Shown piece by piece: positions 2,767-56,565 of a stretch of 64,000 bases of DNA. This DNA is from Maritimibacter alkaliphilus HTCC2654. GTDB taxonomy: Bacteria; Pseudomonadota; Alphaproteobacteria; Rhodobacterales; Rhodobacteraceae. The notes below the pieces were generated by a model. The model was not told the DNA's origin. It saw only the letters and a list, made by a program, of their open reading frames with translations, and ran no database searches. Both the position numbers and the translations under genes were made by a program. The stretch spans positions 1 through 64,000 of the forward strand of contig NZ_CH902578.1 of assembly GCF_000152805.1 (NCBI RefSeq). The letters are read 5' to 3'. Position 1 is the stretch's first letter. Each line of letters starts with the position of its first letter.

Positions 2767-3156
2767 ATGATGCGTTCCGCTTTCTACGTCCTTGCCACAC
2801 TGGCCGTCATGGGTCTGGGCTACTGGGCCTATGTCGAGAACTACAAGACCCAGCACGCGCTGGACGAGGTCGAAGACCTGCAACGCGAAATCGGGCAGAT
2901 GCGCGAAAAGCTGGTCGTTCTGCGGGCCGAATGGGCCTATCTCAACCGGCCAGACCGCCTGCGCGATCTGGCCGAGATGAACTATGACCGCCTTGGGCTT
3001 CTGCCCCTGATGCCGGAGCAGTTCGGCAAGGTCGACCAGATCGCCTATCCGCAGGAAGACGCGTTCCCCTTCCTGTCGTCGGACGACTCGATCGACGTGC
3101 AGGGCAACCTCGTCGGCACCATCGATCCCTCGCCCGAGGGGGAGGATTTCCCATGA
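2767..3156 (+). CDS. ftsL: FtsL, bitopic divisome protein
   Basis: 129 residues. One N-terminal membrane segment (about residues 4-22) is followed by a heptad-rich periplasmic helix with LDEVEDLQREIGQMREKLVVLRAEWAYLNRPDRL, as in alphaproteobacterial FtsL. The AEWAYLNRPDRL end is especially typical. FtsL forms the FtsQLB complex that activates FtsWI. The gene starts at a double ATG (2767 or 2770) and ends in an ATGA overlap with ftsI. The acidic tail after residue 110 is variable in the family. Confidence 0.92.
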   Translation: MMRSAFYVLATLAVMGLGYWAYVENYKTQHALDEVEDLQREIGQMREKLVVLRAEWAYLNRPDRLRDLAEMNYDRLGLLPLMPEQFGKVDQIAYPQEDAFPFLSSDDSIDVQGNLVGTIDPSPEGEDFP

Positions 3157-50735: not shown

Positions 50736-50849
50736 GCGGGATCGTGCCCGGCGAGGTGACTGGGGCGCGTGAAAGGCATCGCAGCCTTGATTTTCAGGGC
50801 CCCGGATGGGTATTCTTCGCGCCAAAGGGACAGTGACGAAGGTTTCTCC

Positions 50850-51434
50850 ATGCGTGTGATCCGGTGGACGGGAACGGTGGCGTTGGTGGTCGCGGCGGCG
50901 ACCGTTTCGGGATGCGCCAAGCGCAACACCACGTCTTTCAGCACGAAAGACCACGAATGCATGGCGCGCGCGATGTATTTCGAGTCGAACCGGTCGAGCC
51001 GGGACGGCATGGTGGCGGTCGGCAGCGTTGTGATGAACCGGGTCGCGTCCGACGCGTTCCCGAACGATGTCTGCGGCGTGGTCGGCCAGCGGGGCCAGTT
51101 CGCGCCGGGGGTGATGACCAAGAAGATGACCGAGGAAGCCTCGGTCGCGCGGGTGTCCGAGGCGGCCTCATCCGTGCTTGGCGGCGAACGGCATCCCAAC
51201 GTCGCCAACGCCCGCTTCTTCCACGCGCAGTATTACCGCGCGAACTACAACAACATGCATTACGTCGCCTCGGCGGGGGGGAACGCGTTTTATGAAAAAC
51301 GTGATCCATCGCTGGTCACGCAGCCCACGCCGCTCGCCAATGTCGAGGGGCTGACGGGCGGCGGCGAAACCTATGTCGCGATGAACGCCCCGCGTGAGCG
51401 CAAGGGCCTTCTGGGTCGCCTGTTCGGGCGGTAG
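50850..51434 (+). CDS. SleB-type cell-wall hydrolase, lipoprotein
   Basis: 194 residues from the ATG at 50850. A short signal ends in VSGC, so Cys22 is probably lipid-modified. The hydrolase-2 domain has CMARAMYFESNRSSRDGMVAVGSVVMNRV with the catalytic Glu, then NVANARFFHAQYYR. Such enzymes cut peptidoglycan in the periplasm. The C-terminus ends in a basic tail. It overlaps the following GST gene by about 41 nt if that gene starts at 51394. Confidence 0.85.
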   Translation: MRVIRWTGTVALVVAAATVSGCAKRNTTSFSTKDHECMARAMYFESNRSSRDGMVAVGSVVMNRVASDAFPNDVCGVVGQRGQFAPGVMTKKMTEEASVARVSEAASSVLGGERHPNVANARFFHAQYYRANYNNMHYVASAGGNAFYEKRDPSLVTQPTPLANVEGLTGGGETYVAMNAPRERKGLLGRLFGR

Positions 51435-52458
51435 GCGCGTCATCTCGGGCGGCAGGATCACGGACAATTCGGTCGAAGAGGACCAGTCGGGCGCTGCCGA
51501 GCGCCGGGCCGGGGGCGAATTCGTGCGTGGGGTCAGCGGATTTCGCCATGCCATCGGCGATGCGGCGTTTCCGGCCGAACCCGGTCGCTATCATCTGTTC
51601 GTCGCGCTCAACTGCCCGTGGTGTCACCGGGTCGTGCTGGCGCGCAGCGTTCTGGGCCTGACCGGCGCGATCAGCATGGACATCGCCTTTCCCAACCGGA
51701 CCGAGGAGGATGATCCTGACGGCGGTGGCCTGTGGGAGTTCGCGCCGCGCCGGGTGGCGAGCCTGACGGGGGCGACGCTGCCGGAATGCACGGCTGAGAC
51801 CGGGACCGGGCGGGGTCTGCGGTTGGCCAAGGACATCTACCGCGCCGAAGGGTCCGAGGAGCAGTCGCTGCCGCTGCTCTACGACAAGCGCGCGGGCCGG
51901 ATCGTGAACAACGAGAGCGCCGAGATCCTGCGCATGTTGAACGCGCAGGCCGGGCCGCTCGGCGCATCGGATGCGCCGGACCTCTATCCCGAGGGTTTGG
52001 CGGATGAGATCGACGCGCTGAATGCCGACATATACGCCGCGATCAACAACGGGGCCTACAAGGCCGGGTTTTCGTCGGATCAGGCGGTCTATGCCGAGGC
52101 GTTCAGGGCATATTTCGACATGCTGGCGACGCTTGACGCGCGGCTGTCGGACGGGCGTGCATTCCTGACGGGCGATCGGTTCACCGAGGCCGATCTGCGG
52201 CTTTTCCCGACGCTGTTTCGGCACGATCCGGTCTATTACCTGCGGATGAAACTGAACGGTGCGCGCATCCTCGACTATCCGCATCTGTGGCGCTGGCTGT
52301 GCCGGGTTCACGCACTTCCGGGCGTGGCCGAGGCCGGGTCGCTAACCCATTGCCGTCAGGGCTATTTCGGGCGCTCGTGGAACCGCACCGTGCCGCTTGG
52401 GCCGTTCGCGCCGATGCCCTATCCCGAGGCCTACGCGCACCCGGAGCTCGCCCGTTAA
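51394..52458 (+). CDS. Xi-class glutathione transferase (glutathionyl-hydroquinone reductase)
   Basis: 354 residues at most. The catalytic motif NCPWCHR sits in the thioredoxin-like part, preceded by EPGRYHLFVALNCPWC; the helical C-terminus includes FLTGDRFTEADLRLFPTLFRHDPVYY. These match xi-class enzymes that reduce glutathionyl-hydroquinones. The start is unsure: GTG at 51394 overlaps the SleB gene, and no clear site lies closer. The final segment is typical of the group (LPGVAEAGSLTHCRQGYF). It is tail to tail with the MFS gene (4-nt overlap). Confidence 0.85.
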   Translation: MSARAFWVACSGGRRVISGGRITDNSVEEDQSGAAERRAGGEFVRGVSGFRHAIGDAAFPAEPGRYHLFVALNCPWCHRVVLARSVLGLTGAISMDIAFPNRTEEDDPDGGGLWEFAPRRVASLTGATLPECTAETGTGRGLRLAKDIYRAEGSEEQSLPLLYDKRAGRIVNNESAEILRMLNAQAGPLGASDAPDLYPEGLADEIDALNADIYAAINNGAYKAGFSSDQAVYAEAFRAYFDMLATLDARLSDGRAFLTGDRFTEADLRLFPTLFRHDPVYYLRMKLNGARILDYPHLWRWLCRVHALPGVAEAGSLTHCRQGYFGRSWNRTVPLGPFAPMPYPEAYAHPELAR

Positions 52459-53711
52459 CTGCGCGTGTCGAGGATGCGTCGGGGCATGATGAGGACCAGC
52501 GCGATGGCGAGGATCTTGAGCGCACAGGGCAAAAGCGCGTAGCTCATGTTGAGCGCGGCGAGCGCGTCGGCGCTGTTCGTCTCGCCCGGCTCGTAGCCCG
52601 CGCTTTGCAGGAACGGCAGAACGACTCCGGCGGCGATGGCGAGCGTGGCCTTGGTCGAGAAGTTCCACAGCCCGAACGCCTGACCCGCCTGCCGCCCCGC
52701 GCGTTGCAGGTTGGCGGCGAAGAGCGCGGACAGGATCACCATGTCCGCGCCCAGCGCGACACCGGAGGCCAGACAGATGAGCGCGAAGGCCGCCGTCGCG
52801 CCTTCGGGCAACAGGAACGCGCCGATGAAACTGACGATGGCCAGCGTCATGGACACGGGCAGCACCCGGCGCGCGCCGAGGCGTTGCGTGATGCGGCTCC
52901 AGAACGGGGCGCTGACGCCTGCGGCCACGAAGAAGAGGATGAGGAAGGGGCCGGCCATGGCGGGCAGCGCCAGCCGATCCTCGACGAAGAACAGGAACAG
53001 GGTCGAGGTGACGGCGACCGGCAGGTTGTTGACGAAGGCGAGCGCGAGGAGCCAGCCTGCGCCAGACCCGATGATGCCGGACCAGTCGAGGCGCATGTTT
53101 TTTGGTTGCGCCTTGGCCCAGAGCGGTGCCGAGACGAGAAGGGCGGCGAGGGCGAGGAGCGCGATGGCGATGCCGAAGGGGGCATAGCCCTGATCGGCAT
53201 CCGAGAATCCGGCGAGCAGCGTCGGACCCGCCGCGCCGAGCGTGACGCCGATCAGCACCCCCATTTCGCGCACGCCCGACAGGTTGAGTTGCTCGTTCGG
53301 GCTGGCGTTCGCGGCGAAGGTCGCGCTCTGGCCGTAAAGCAGGATGGTGCCGAGGCTGTAGCCGGTGAAGGTCACCAAGAGGCCCGCCACCAGCCAAAGC
53401 GCCACGGGGCCGATGGGCGCGATGGCGAAGACCATGAGGCTGCCGACCGAAAGAGCGATCAGCCCCGCGCTCGCCAGCCGTGCGATGCGGTGCGAATAGC
53501 GGTCGGTCATCCAGCCCAGAAGCGGGTCTTGGAGGAAGTCGACCATGCGGATCGCAAGCAGGATGGTGCCGACCTGCCCGAGGGTCAGGCCCAGGCGCGA
53601 CGCCGCGAAGCTGGGCAGATGGATGTAGATCGGGATCGACGCCGTGGCGAGCGCCATGGCGAGAAAACCGACGCGCCAGTAATCGCGGGTGGGGGAGAGG
53701 GTGCGGGCCAA
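52455..53711 (-). CDS. MFS transporter, GPH/melibiose-carrier type
   Basis: About 418 residues with twelve membrane helices. The loop RMVDFLQDPLLGWMTDRYSHR after the second helix is the MFS signature D-R-x-x-x-R. The GPH group usually moves sugars or glycosides with a cation; the substrate is not known. A start at TTG 53711 is the best fit; the frame is open back to 53876, but those residues look like translated control region. It is divergent from satD, and the shared gap carries the repeats listed below. Confidence 0.8.
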   Translation of the reverse strand: MARTLSPTRDYWRVGFLAMALATASIPIYIHLPSFAASRLGLTLGQVGTILLAIRMVDFLQDPLLGWMTDRYSHRIARLASAGLIALSVGSLMVFAIAPIGPVALWLVAGLLVTFTGYSLGTILLYGQSATFAANASPNEQLNLSGVREMGVLIGVTLGAAGPTLLAGFSDADQGYAPFGIAIALLALAALLVSAPLWAKAQPKNMRLDWSGIIGSGAGWLLALAFVNNLPVAVTSTLFLFFVEDRLALPAMAGPFLILFFVAAGVSAPFWSRITQRLGARRVLPVSMTLAIVSFIGAFLLPEGATAAFALICLASGVALGADMVILSALFAANLQRAGRQAGQAFGLWNFSTKATLAIAAGVVLPFLQSAGYEPGETNSADALAALNMSYALLPCALKILAIALVLIMPRRILDTRS

Positions 53712-53802
53712 GGATCTGCTCTCGTCGTTGCGTGTGGCTGTTACGGTGAACCGCCGGGGATGGATCGGTCGGGCGGCGTGGCCTGCGCGATGGTCCGAAA
53801 TC

Positions 53803-53852
53803 GGGTCAATTTCATTATTGACCCAAAATTGGTTACATTGCAGAATTGACCC
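53803..53852. promoter_or_regulatory. Operator-like GGGTCAAT/ATTGACCC repeats over the satD promoter
   Basis: GGGTCAAT (53803-53810) and ATTGACCC (53817-53824) form a perfect inverted repeat with a 6-bp spacer. A third ATTGACCC lies at 53845-53852. TTGACC at 53818-53823 with CAGAAT at 53841-53846 (17-bp spacing) makes a good promoter for satD. The repeats therefore cover its -35, -10 and start point. No ribosome binding site precedes the ATG at 53857, so the message is nearly leaderless. The gap is also shared with the MFS gene. Confidence 0.55.
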
Positions 53853-53856
53853 AATT

Positions 53857-54516
53857 ATGGAAAACGACGCCGACATATATGCCGTGGTGATGGGCGATCT
53901 GGTGCGCAGCGAAGCCGCGCCCGCACCGGAGGCGCTTCACGCCGCCTTCAACGCGGCCGTCGAGGCCGCGAATGCGCGGGCCGCGGACGCCATCGTTTCG
54001 CCTCTGACCATCACGCTTGGGGACGAGTTCCAGGGGCTGCTCGGGTCGCTGGCCGAAGCCGCGCGGCTGGCGCGCCACCTGCGCTTCACGCTCATGGCCA
54101 AGGGGATCGACTGCCGTTTCGTCATCGGGCAGGCGCGGATCGAGACTCCGGTGAACCGCGAAAAGGCGTGGAACATGATGGGGCCGGGGCTGGCACGGGC
54201 GCGCGAGACGCTGGACGAAAAGAAACAGGGGCTGACCTATCGCTTCACGCTGTTGGAGGAGGCGATGACCGAACGGTTGCTGGAGGCCATCGGCGCGGGC
54301 CTTGCCGTCATCGAACGCGACTGGACCGACCGGCAGCGCGAAGACATCGAGGCGCTGCTCGACGGGCAAACGGTCGAGGAAATCGCCGGGCGGCGTGGCG
54401 TGACGGTGCATTCGGTCTATAAGGTGCGCAGCGCGGGCGACTATGACGCCTACACGATGCAATGGGCGGCGGTCGAGGCCGCGCTGGACGCCATCGACGG
54501 GGAGGGCACGGCATGA
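53857..54516 (+). CDS. SatD-family protein with C-terminal helix-turn-helix
   Basis: 219 residues. The N-terminal MGDLVRS and TITLGDEFQGLLG strands match SatD, a family named from the acid-tolerance locus of Streptococcus, with no settled biochemical role. The C-terminus (about 157-195: DRQREDIEALLDGQTVEEIAGRRGVTVHSVYKVRS) is a clear helix-turn-helix, so it could bind DNA and its own operator. The start follows the third ATTGACCC by 4 nt. It overlaps the next gene by 4 nt. Confidence 0.82.
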   Translation: MENDADIYAVVMGDLVRSEAAPAPEALHAAFNAAVEAANARAADAIVSPLTITLGDEFQGLLGSLAEAARLARHLRFTLMAKGIDCRFVIGQARIETPVNREKAWNMMGPGLARARETLDEKKQGLTYRFTLLEEAMTERLLEAIGAGLAVIERDWTDRQREDIEALLDGQTVEEIAGRRGVTVHSVYKVRSAGDYDAYTMQWAAVEAALDAIDGEGTA

Positions 54517-54950
54517 TCGACATCCTGCACGGGGCGGCCTATTCTCTCGTCGCGCTGGTCTTGTTGAGCTGGGGCGGAAACCTTGCCTGTCGCTGGCTTC
54601 TGAGACTGACGGGGCTGAAACCCGTGGCGGCGGACGCGCCCGCGACACCGGAGGGCGAGGCCGACACGGCCCGCGCAGGCCGGGTGATCGGGTCGCTCGA
54701 AAGGCTCATAATGGCGGGCGGCGTGCTGATCCAGCGGTGGGAAATCCTCGCCGCCGTGATCGCGCTGAAATCCGTGTCGCGGTTCAAGGAACTGAACGAC
54801 AAGACCTTCGCGGAATACTTTCTCGTCGGCTCGCTGTGCAGCCTGTTCTGGACGATCCTCGTCGCGGTGGCATGGCTTGGCTACGACGCCACGCTGGGTG
54901 TCGGACTGCGCGCGAAGCTTTTGATCTTGCTCGGAATTTCGGCGGGCTAG
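54513..54950 (+). CDS. Membrane protein of unknown function, satD partner
   Basis: 145 residues from the ATG at 54513, coupled to satD by ATGA. About three membrane segments are visible: near 7-30 (AAYSLVALVLLSWGGNLACRWLL), near 60-85 and near 107-125 (LVGSLCSLFWTILVAVAWLGY). A conserved-looking cytoplasmic block LKSVSRFKELNDKTFAEYFLVGS lies between. I know that satD genes often sit beside small membrane proteins such as DUF3307, but I cannot assign this one. A shared role is inferred from coupling only. Confidence 0.6.
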   Translation: MIDILHGAAYSLVALVLLSWGGNLACRWLLRLTGLKPVAADAPATPEGEADTARAGRVIGSLERLIMAGGVLIQRWEILAAVIALKSVSRFKELNDKTFAEYFLVGSLCSLFWTILVAVAWLGYDATLGVGLRAKLLILLGISAG

Positions 54951-54957
54951 GCCGGGG

Positions 54958-56565
54958 TCAAAGCCCCAGCTTGGCCGCCACGATCTCGTTCACCGCCTTG
55001 GGGTTGGCCTTGCCGCCCGTGGCCTTCATCACCTGACCCACGAACCAGCCTGCGAGTTTCGGGTTCTGCTTGGCCTTTTCGACCTGTTCGGGGTTGGCCG
55101 CGATTACCTCGTCCACCGCCGTTTCAATGGCGCCGGTGTCGGTGACCTGCTTCATGCCTTCGGTTTCCACGATCTCTTCCGGGTCGCGGTCCTGCGTATA
55201 GGCGATTTCGAACACGTCCTTGCCGATCTTGCCGGAAATGTCGCCCTTCTTGATGAGCGCGACGATCTGGCCAAGGCGGGCCGGGCTGATCGGGCTGTCG
55301 GCGATGTCGCGGTCGTCTTTCTTCAGGCGGCCGAACAGCTCGTTGATGACCCAGTTGGCAGAAAGCTTCCCCAAATCTCTTGATTGGATTGACTCAAAAT
55401 CGCCAACAGGTTTGTCGGACGTAGTGGCGTAAACTGGCGAAAGGGGCAATTCGTCGAGCTTACCGATAGTAGAGCCGACGACCTCTTCGAAGAAGCTCGC
55501 GTTGGTGGTGTCCGCCGTCAGCACGCCCGCATCGTATTCGGACAGGCCGAAGTCCTTGACGAACCGCGCCTTTTTCTCGTCCGGCAGCTCGGGAAGCGTG
55601 GCTTTGATCCCATCGACCCAGGCCTGTTCGATCTCGAGCGGCAGAAGGTCGGGGCAGGGGAAGTAGCGGTAATCATGCGCCTCTTCCTTGGACCGCATGG
55701 AGCGGGTCTCGTTCTTGTCCGGGTCGTAAAGCCTGGTTTCCTGCACAACCTCGCCCCCGTCCTCGACAATGGCGATCTGGCGGCGGGCCTCATAGTCGAT
55801 GGCGGCCTGAATGAAGCGCATGGAGTTCATGTTCTTGATCTCGCAGCGCGTGCCGAGATGGCTGAAGTCCTGCGTTTCCATGTATTTTTCATACTGACCG
55901 GGGCGGCAGACCGACACGTTCACGTCGGCCCGCAGATTGCCGTTCTGCATGTTGCCGTCGCAGGTGCCCAAATAGCGCAGGATCTGGCGCAGCTTGGTGA
56001 CATAGGCCGCCGCCTCTTCCGGGCCGCGGATGTCGGGGCGGCTGACGATCTCCATCAGCGCGACGCCGGTGCGGTTCAAGTCCACGAAGGACATCGAGGG
56101 GTCCATGTCGTGAATCGACTTGCCCGCGTCCTGCTCCAGATGGATGCGCTCGATGCGCACGCGGCGGGCGATGCCCGGTCCCATGTCGACGATGATTTCG
56201 CCCTCGCCCACGATCGGGTGGTAAAGCTGCGAAATCTGGTAGCCCTGCGGCAGGTCGGGATAGAAGTAGTTCTTGCGGTCGAAGGCGGAGAACAGGTTGA
56301 TTTCGGCCTTGAGGCCCAGACCCGTGCGCACCGCCTGTTCGACGCAGAATTCGTTGATGACCGGCAGCATCCCCGGCATGGCGGCATCCACGAAGGCGAC
56401 GTTGGCGTTGGGTTCCGCGCCGAATTGCGTGGAGGCGCCCGAGAACAGCTTGGCCTTGGACGACACCTGCGCGTGCACCTCCATCCCGATGACGAGTTCC
56501 CAGTCCTCGCGCGCACCGGCGATGACGGTGGGTTTCGGGGTCTCGAAGGCAAGATGGTCGAGCAT
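54958..56565 (-). CDS. gatB: GatB, Asp-tRNA(Asn)/Glu-tRNA(Gln) amidotransferase subunit B, with an insertion
   Basis: 535 residues, about 30 more than most. The amidotransferase core has [39 protein letters not shown] and [27 protein letters not shown]; the C-terminal YqeY-like tail includes [22 protein letters not shown]. It makes Gln-tRNA and/or Asn-tRNA with GatA and GatC. An extra 34-codon block (55372-55473) lies just before the conserved [16 protein letters not shown]; its codons (ACT, AAA, TCA, CAA, AGA, TTT) are unlike the rest of the gene. The frame stays open, so the enzyme is probably active. Confidence 0.95.

Follow-up and report, generated by a model that had tools for sequence, protein, structure and literature searches.

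The SatD protein family (PF16264) is named for the secretion and acid tolerance genes of Streptococcus mutans. As at the locus described here, a gene for a membrane protein lies downstream of satD in the family; in some relatives a DUF3307 protein takes the place of this partner. Among the papers listed by the literature searches, outside of which most subscription papers fall, none reports DNA binding by SatD, a satD operator or autoregulation of satD. Two other groups of described proteins are of importance for comparison with SatD. Class III nucleotidyl cyclases possess a VNxAxR catalytic stretch that holds the transition-state Asn and Arg, and CapW/BrxR and the type II antitoxins are autorepressors of defence and toxin-antitoxin operons.

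Here, we analysed the satD locus in a 64-kb stretch of DNA, further called the window, for which an original prediction had proposed that SatD may bind inverted repeats in front of its own gene and thereby control both itself and a divergent MFS carrier. Our analysis indicates that SatD is most likely a self-regulating DNA-binding protein that acts on its own operator array and would repress the operon, with a nucleotide as the likely signal. The features of the locus are the following (coordinates of the window):

50769-51434: cell-wall hydrolase gene (Pfam Hydrolase_2), resembling the gene upstream of satD at locus L003
52455-53711, minus strand: divergent MFS_2-type carrier gene (Pfam MFS_2, E 4.4e-43), TTG start assumed, outside the conserved unit
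53790-53809: predicted operator unit 1, ATGGTCC-N6-GGGTCAA, from the array fit (period 28, gap 6), left half degenerate
53803-53824: perfect palindrome GGGTCAAT-N6-ATTGACCC, the facing halves of units 1 and 2
53818-53837: predicted operator unit 2, TTGACCC-N6-GGTTACA, from the array fit, right half degenerate, left half containing the -35
53818-53823, plus strand: -35-like TTGACC, from the consensus scan
53841-53846, plus strand: -10-like CAGAAT after a 17-bp spacer, from the consensus scan
53845-53852, plus strand: third exact half-site ATTGACCC, by reading of the sequence
53846-53865: predicted operator unit 3, TTGACCC-N6-GGAAAAC, from the array fit, right half degenerate, spanning the start point and the ATG
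53857-54516, plus strand: satD, 219 aa (Pfam SatD, E 3.9e-16), cyclase-fold domain at about residues 1-155 and helix-turn-helix (HTH) at about 156-217
54513-54950, plus strand: partner gene for a probable membrane protein of 145 aa, its ATG overlapping the satD stop (ATGA), following satD in relatives

Relatives were collected by a scan of genome contigs, which yielded at least 528 satD relatives, 80 of which were kept as loci, and their start codons were chosen by script. The protein alignment (A1) holds 79 sequences and omits L051 (upstream region identical to that of L003), L058 (cut), L076 and L079 (no start found), L081, L004, L007 and L008. SatD of the window passes the gathering score of PF16264 (59.8 bits against a cut-off of 29) and its AlphaFold model has a mean pLDDT of 95. 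The helix-turn-helix with which the protein had been credited is present at the C-terminus of this model, formed by helices 158-168, 173-180 and 184-193, the latter being the recognition helix; Pfam HTH_23 matches weakly and below its cut-off (13.7 vs 24.6 bits). Residues 1-155 best match the class III adenylyl cyclases 1ybt and 4wp9 (Foldseek E 2.2e-4 and 3.4e-4; VIA Z 10.6 and 10.4), with Cas10 (9l7d, Z 9.9) and GTP cyclohydrolase III (2qv6, Z 9.6) nearly equal, as gaps in Z of less than 1 are to be read as ties. Asp14, Ser18, Thr53, Gly55, Asp56 and Gln59 are invariant in all 79 rows and Glu57 and Phe58 are conserved in 77. Judged from strand position, Asp14 and Asp56 would represent the metal-binding Asp pair of the cyclases. 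With the cyclase motif aligned by eye, Arg116 is found in 77 of the 79 rows and position 113 is Ala, Ser or Thr in 72; since it is this stretch that holds the transition-state Asn in cyclases, catalysis is uncertain and sensing of a nucleotide is at least as likely. On the basis of the modelled fold, a nucleotide is likely to be the signal to which SatD responds.

The coupling of satD to its partner gene is common among the relatives. In 77 of 83 loci, a script called an open frame of at least 80 aa whose start falls between -31 and +27 nt relative to the satD stop. No frame was called at L058, L072 and L081, where the available DNA ends within 1-97 bases, and at L003, L065 and L082 the script picked the wrong frame, L003 indeed carrying the partner (tblastn, 81% identity). 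A tblastn search with the partner of the window matched 67 loci, three of them from the window's own genome. We infer that satD and the partner gene are co-transcribed. The AlphaFold model of the partner (mean pLDDT 92) is composed of helices only, and three hydrophobic peaks (19-residue mean of at least 1.6) are situated near residues 1, 65 and 99-106. G60, E63, R64, A84, L85, K86, Y102, G106 and S110 are invariant in all 59 rows, and the charged residues among these (E63, R64 and K86) sit in predicted helices.

This overlapping two-gene arrangement also speaks for a toxin-antitoxin-like or abortive pair, in which SatD represses the operon and in addition restrains a harmful membrane partner. 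The distribution of satD fits such a pair as well, since the gene is patchy (7 of 394 sampled genomes of the family, 2 of 8 genomes of the genus) and has plasmid copies (7 records over two queries). A class-wide search with SatD of L017 matched only the window's genome among 385, though the contig scan gave many other loci. Moreover, the copy on pAt of A. tumefaciens (L098, 1-12621) lies among genes for a (p)ppGpp synthetase, DUF4365, an antitoxin, HEPN and HipA. At this locus the next listed gene starts just 135 bp after satD, in a gene table that is incomplete, and the partner may be misannotated or altered. In S. pyogenes, satD is reported to be essential though accessory (178 of 249 genomes; PMC11323703), which would again suit a toxin-antitoxin function. 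Conversely, the partner reaches the cut-off of no Pfam family, DUF3307 included, and has no confident match to a fold in the PDB (best E 2.4). A known anti-phage system was considered and rejected, as neither SatD nor the partner has a match in PADLOC-DB 2023, with E values up to 1 considered. A phage origin of satD was rejected likewise, with no match in phage records and none confirmed in viral contigs. Taken together, we regard a toxin-antitoxin-like pair as possible, though we lean against it, and it extends the account of SatD as an autorepressor more than it competes with it.

The case for SatD as an autorepressor starts from the DNA upstream of satD. Direct reading of the sequence bore out the proposed inverted repeat and its third copy, all three 8-mers being exact: GGGTCAAT at 53803-53810 and ATTGACCC at 53817-53824 and 53845-53852. 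These are the only exact copies in the 64-kb window. In a local stretch of 3,022 bp, 0.10 copies of the 8-mer are expected and three copies were reached in 0 of 200 shuffles, while at up to one mismatch the window holds 40 matches in all against 46.3 expected, which is chance level. The 22-mer palindrome has a single occurrence in the genome of 4.54 Mb (reversed-pattern control: 0). In addition, we identified a degenerate fourth half-site that had been missed before, GGTTACAT at 53831-53838, and with this one included the half-sites alternate every 14 bp (53803, 53817, 53831 and 53845). We also considered a genome-wide regulon and rejected it: with as many as 2 mismatches allowed, two palindrome patterns matched 16 and 24 times and their reversed controls 19 and 21 times, the second pattern missing the window's own unit (3 mismatches). 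That similar palindromes are not in excess elsewhere in the genome suits a private operator.

A consensus scan of positions 53690-53900 detected TTGACC-17 bp-CAGAAT (53818-53846; 9 of 12 matches, 0.2 expected in shuffles) as the sole promoter-like site. The good -35 thought to lie under the repeat is thus found at 53818-53823, within the left half of unit 2. Transcription would start about 7 nt past CAGAAT, which is about 4 nt before the ATG, and the predicted leader would have a length of about 4 nt.

Upstream of satD in the relatives, where the same repeats had been expected, the layout of the array is conserved and its letters vary by clade. Half-sites alternate in orientation with one pair per 28-30 bp, and at many of the loci this alternation can be recognised by eye. 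The array test was applied to 83 loci (L004, L007, L008 and L051 are not among them), and none of 100 dinucleotide shuffles reached the array score at 75 of these 83 satD loci, compared to 0 of 83 control stretches taken from the same loci. With a looser cut (at most 5 of 100 shuffles reaching the array score) these numbers become 80 and 5, respectively, the three loci that failed being L032, L036 and L055. Seven further loci, two of which are haloarchaeal plasmids, all passed the test (0 of 100 shuffles). Direct repeats of 6-mers at distances of 29 and 28 bp are present at 34 and 24 of the 83 loci, respectively, against control means of 2.8 and 2.75. When the inner gap was fixed at 6, the fitted period was 28 bp in 26, 29 bp in 31 and 30 bp in 3 of the 60 alignment rows (L002-L066); when it was left free among 5, 6 and 7, a gap of 6 was picked in 52 of the 60 loci, among them 28 of the 31 whose period is 29. 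Because the inner gap is mostly 6 while the period varies between 28 and 30 bp, the rigid unit is TTGACCC-N6-GGGTCAA (53818-53837 in the window). The palindrome of the original prediction, exact in its letters, was consequently read out of register, as it is made up of halves of two adjoining units.

The two haloarchaeal plasmid loci (L099 and L100, at about 2850-3000) are satD-DUF3307 operons with an array of half-sites GTTCGCC/GTTCGGC, which is alike in kind though archaeal promoters are unlike bacterial ones. The family to which the window belongs also contains distant SatD relatives (L004-L008), whose arrays have other half-sites (e.g. GCAAGC, GCAACC, GCACCC, TTTCCTT).

Of the 24 loci with a His at SatD residue 185, 17 have TTGACC at 35-39 nt upstream of the start codon, three Pseudomonas loci have it at 28-29 nt and four lack it, which indicates that the nearly leaderless geometry is widely shared. 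GGTTACA is located at most 60 bp from the start codon in 9 of these 24 loci, the window counted. Sites over the -35 or the start point are the placement usual for repressors, and their position over both elements of a nearly leaderless promoter argues for autorepression of satD and the membrane protein. An activating instead of repressing action of SatD from the array could be read from a few loci (L043, L050, L057, L061 and L063; 5 of 60), at which the centre of the last fitted unit lies 59-97 bp upstream of the chosen start codon and promoter occlusion is less obvious. However, in the window as well as in the relatives with TTGACC at 35-39 nt (17 of the 24 His185 loci), the -35 is overlapped by half-sites that extend in the direction of the start point, and we consider activation to be improbable.

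The divergent MFS gene, with its assumed start at about 90 bp from the array, raised the idea that the repeats jointly control satD and this carrier. However, in the satD loci examined by tblastn, an MFS homologue is found only in those of the window's own genome, the consensus scan of 53690-53900 gave no minus-strand promoter, and a relative of the same genus (L003) has a cell-wall hydrolase gene directly upstream of satD on the same strand instead, with gatB downstream. Joint control is therefore very improbable; from the claim that SatD governs itself and the carrier we dropped the carrier and retained self-control, which is well backed by the conservation of the array and its covariation with the recognition-helix region. 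GST-like and MFS genes occupy 51400-53711 of the window, between the hydrolase gene and satD, and were presumably inserted in the window's lineage or lost in that of L003. Inside gatB, positions 55370-55450 of the window have a G+C content of 0.48, compared to 0.62 for the whole gatB frame.

The differences in half-site letters among relatives made it possible to relate the array to the protein. Rhodobacteraceae and many Sphingomonas have TTGACCC, whereas Phenylobacterium and Bordetella carry TATCCC or TAGCCC, Roseibium and Brevundimonas TTGAACC, Bacteroidetes and others TTTCA or TTGCA/TTGTA and one Lachnospiraceae locus TATAGCC; TTCGCC also occurs among the relatives. For 209 variable SatD positions in 60 loci (those of L002-L066 present in A1), we determined the half-site difference explained after removing the overall protein distance; the rankings for single half-site positions cover positions 3 to 7. 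Residue 185 comes out on top of the 209, both when the half-site is taken as a whole and for its position 3. Top-ranked for positions 4, 5 and 6 are residues 182 (just before the helix), 191 and 189, respectively, while position 7 is led by the non-helix residues 152 and 108, and high ranks for the half-site as a whole are also held by the non-helix residues 163, 73 and 152. The fit of the half-site phase weakly favoured C at position 6 and either C or T at position 7, which makes the covariation at these positions less independent, and one locus (L046) is possibly out of phase. As a set, columns 182-191 exceed the other columns (p = 7.5e-6), whereas the N6 spacer, used as a control, displays no covariation with them (p = 0.94) and ranks residue 185 only 172nd.

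The residue groups and the rule for residue 185 were picked after inspection of the table and read as follows: Arg185 (17 loci) goes together with a G at position 3 (0.98) and an A at position 5 (0.76), Pro185 (3 loci) with A at position 3 (0.94), Gln185 (9 loci) with A or C (0.56 and 0.37) and His185 (24 loci) with G or T at position 3 (0.53 and 0.33). The residue-185/position-3 rule is broken by 2 of 60 loci (L020 and L024), the pairing of Arg185 with A at position 5 by 6 of 60 and that of Arg191 with C at position 5 by 8 of 60. Of two loci added later, L097 agrees with the residue-185 rule and L098 has His185, yet mostly A at position 3. Residue 186 probably contributes as well, since the combination His185-Asn186 (L015, L024 and L098) tends to A or a mixture at position 3.

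Leave-one-out prediction from the ten residues 182-191 outperforms that from the cyclase domain when relatives of more than 65% identity (p = 2.2e-4) or more than 55% identity (p = 2.6e-7) are excluded; with close relatives kept in, the helix predictor is only marginally above the cyclase domain (p = 0.059). In distant phyla, 5-mer counts revealed that TTGYA exceeds TTTCA/TATCA in 7 of 7 rows with Arg189 and that the reverse holds in 9 of 9 rows with Lys189 (Fisher p 8.7e-5), these 16 non-Firmicute rows being 16 of 19, with the Firmicute rows L080, L084 and L088 set aside for their other motifs and L076, L079 and L081 outside the alignment. The sequences in the covariation analysis share ancestry, and in an independent-pairs test on a cyclase-domain tree only 2 pairs were supported for the residue-185/position-3 rule (with on average 1.9 of 2 in agreement) and a single pair for each of the two position-5 rules, which is too few for significance. 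Because the letters track the recognition-helix region and the spacer does not, SatD is, as far as sequence comparison can tell, very probably the protein that binds the array. That another, unlinked regulator occupies the array and SatD is merely downstream is highly improbable, since, although many regulators bind palindromic arrays and the tree-based test had few pairs, letters that, in 60 loci and in distant phyla, follow the SatD helix region beyond what the protein background explains are not expected from an unlinked protein.

For SatD as regulator of its own operon we propose the following mechanism. Through its C-terminal HTH, and most simply as a dimer, SatD would bind the TTGACCC-N6-GGGTCAA units that occur every 28-30 bp before its own gene, a direct binding suggested by the covariation. 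In the window, three such units, comprising three exact and one recognisable degenerate half-site, would extend over the -35, spacer and start point. Bound SatD would then shut out RNA polymerase and hold expression of satD and the membrane protein low, as the placement of the sites suggests. The cyclase-fold domain with its two invariant Asp residues would sense or handle a nucleotide and in this way determine whether SatD stays on the DNA or leaves it, a signal to which the fold alone points.

This gives the widespread SatD family a testable molecular role as regulator of its own operon, and points to the cyclase-fold domain as the body of a transcription factor and to the membrane partner as the controlled product. 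Moreover, the natural protein-operator pairs, in which one helix residue changes together with one or two bases, provide a data set for DNA-recognition codes. More speculatively, and with considerable doubt as to whether it will hold, SatD could be the prototype of one-protein switches in bacteria and haloarchaea that combine a cyclase-fold nucleotide sensor or synthase and an HTH with a private, rapidly diverging operator array and guard an operon for a small membrane effector. The operator alphabet of each lineage would prevent cross-repression by co-resident or incoming copies, and a change in the nucleotide (e.g. upon infection or acid stress) would free the array and the effector.

Compared to the class III nucleotidyl cyclases (Rv1900c, Ma1120), residues 1-155 of the predicted SatD model are alike in fold (rmsd 3.0-3.4 over 137-141 residues with 1ybt/1ybu). 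In contrast, SatD has an identity of only 13-19% with the mycobacterial cyclases, its VNxAxR stretch seems altered and its domain is fused to an HTH. With CapW/BrxR and the type II antitoxins, SatD shares the position of a regulator inside the operon it would control and a palindromic operator over its own promoter; unlike these, it possesses a cyclase-fold body and an array of 28-30 bp period whose letters have diverged together with the protein across bacteria and haloarchaea. Autoregulation through palindromic operators is already known, and what is new is the combination of a cyclase-fold body with an array that is conserved in layout and re-lettered.
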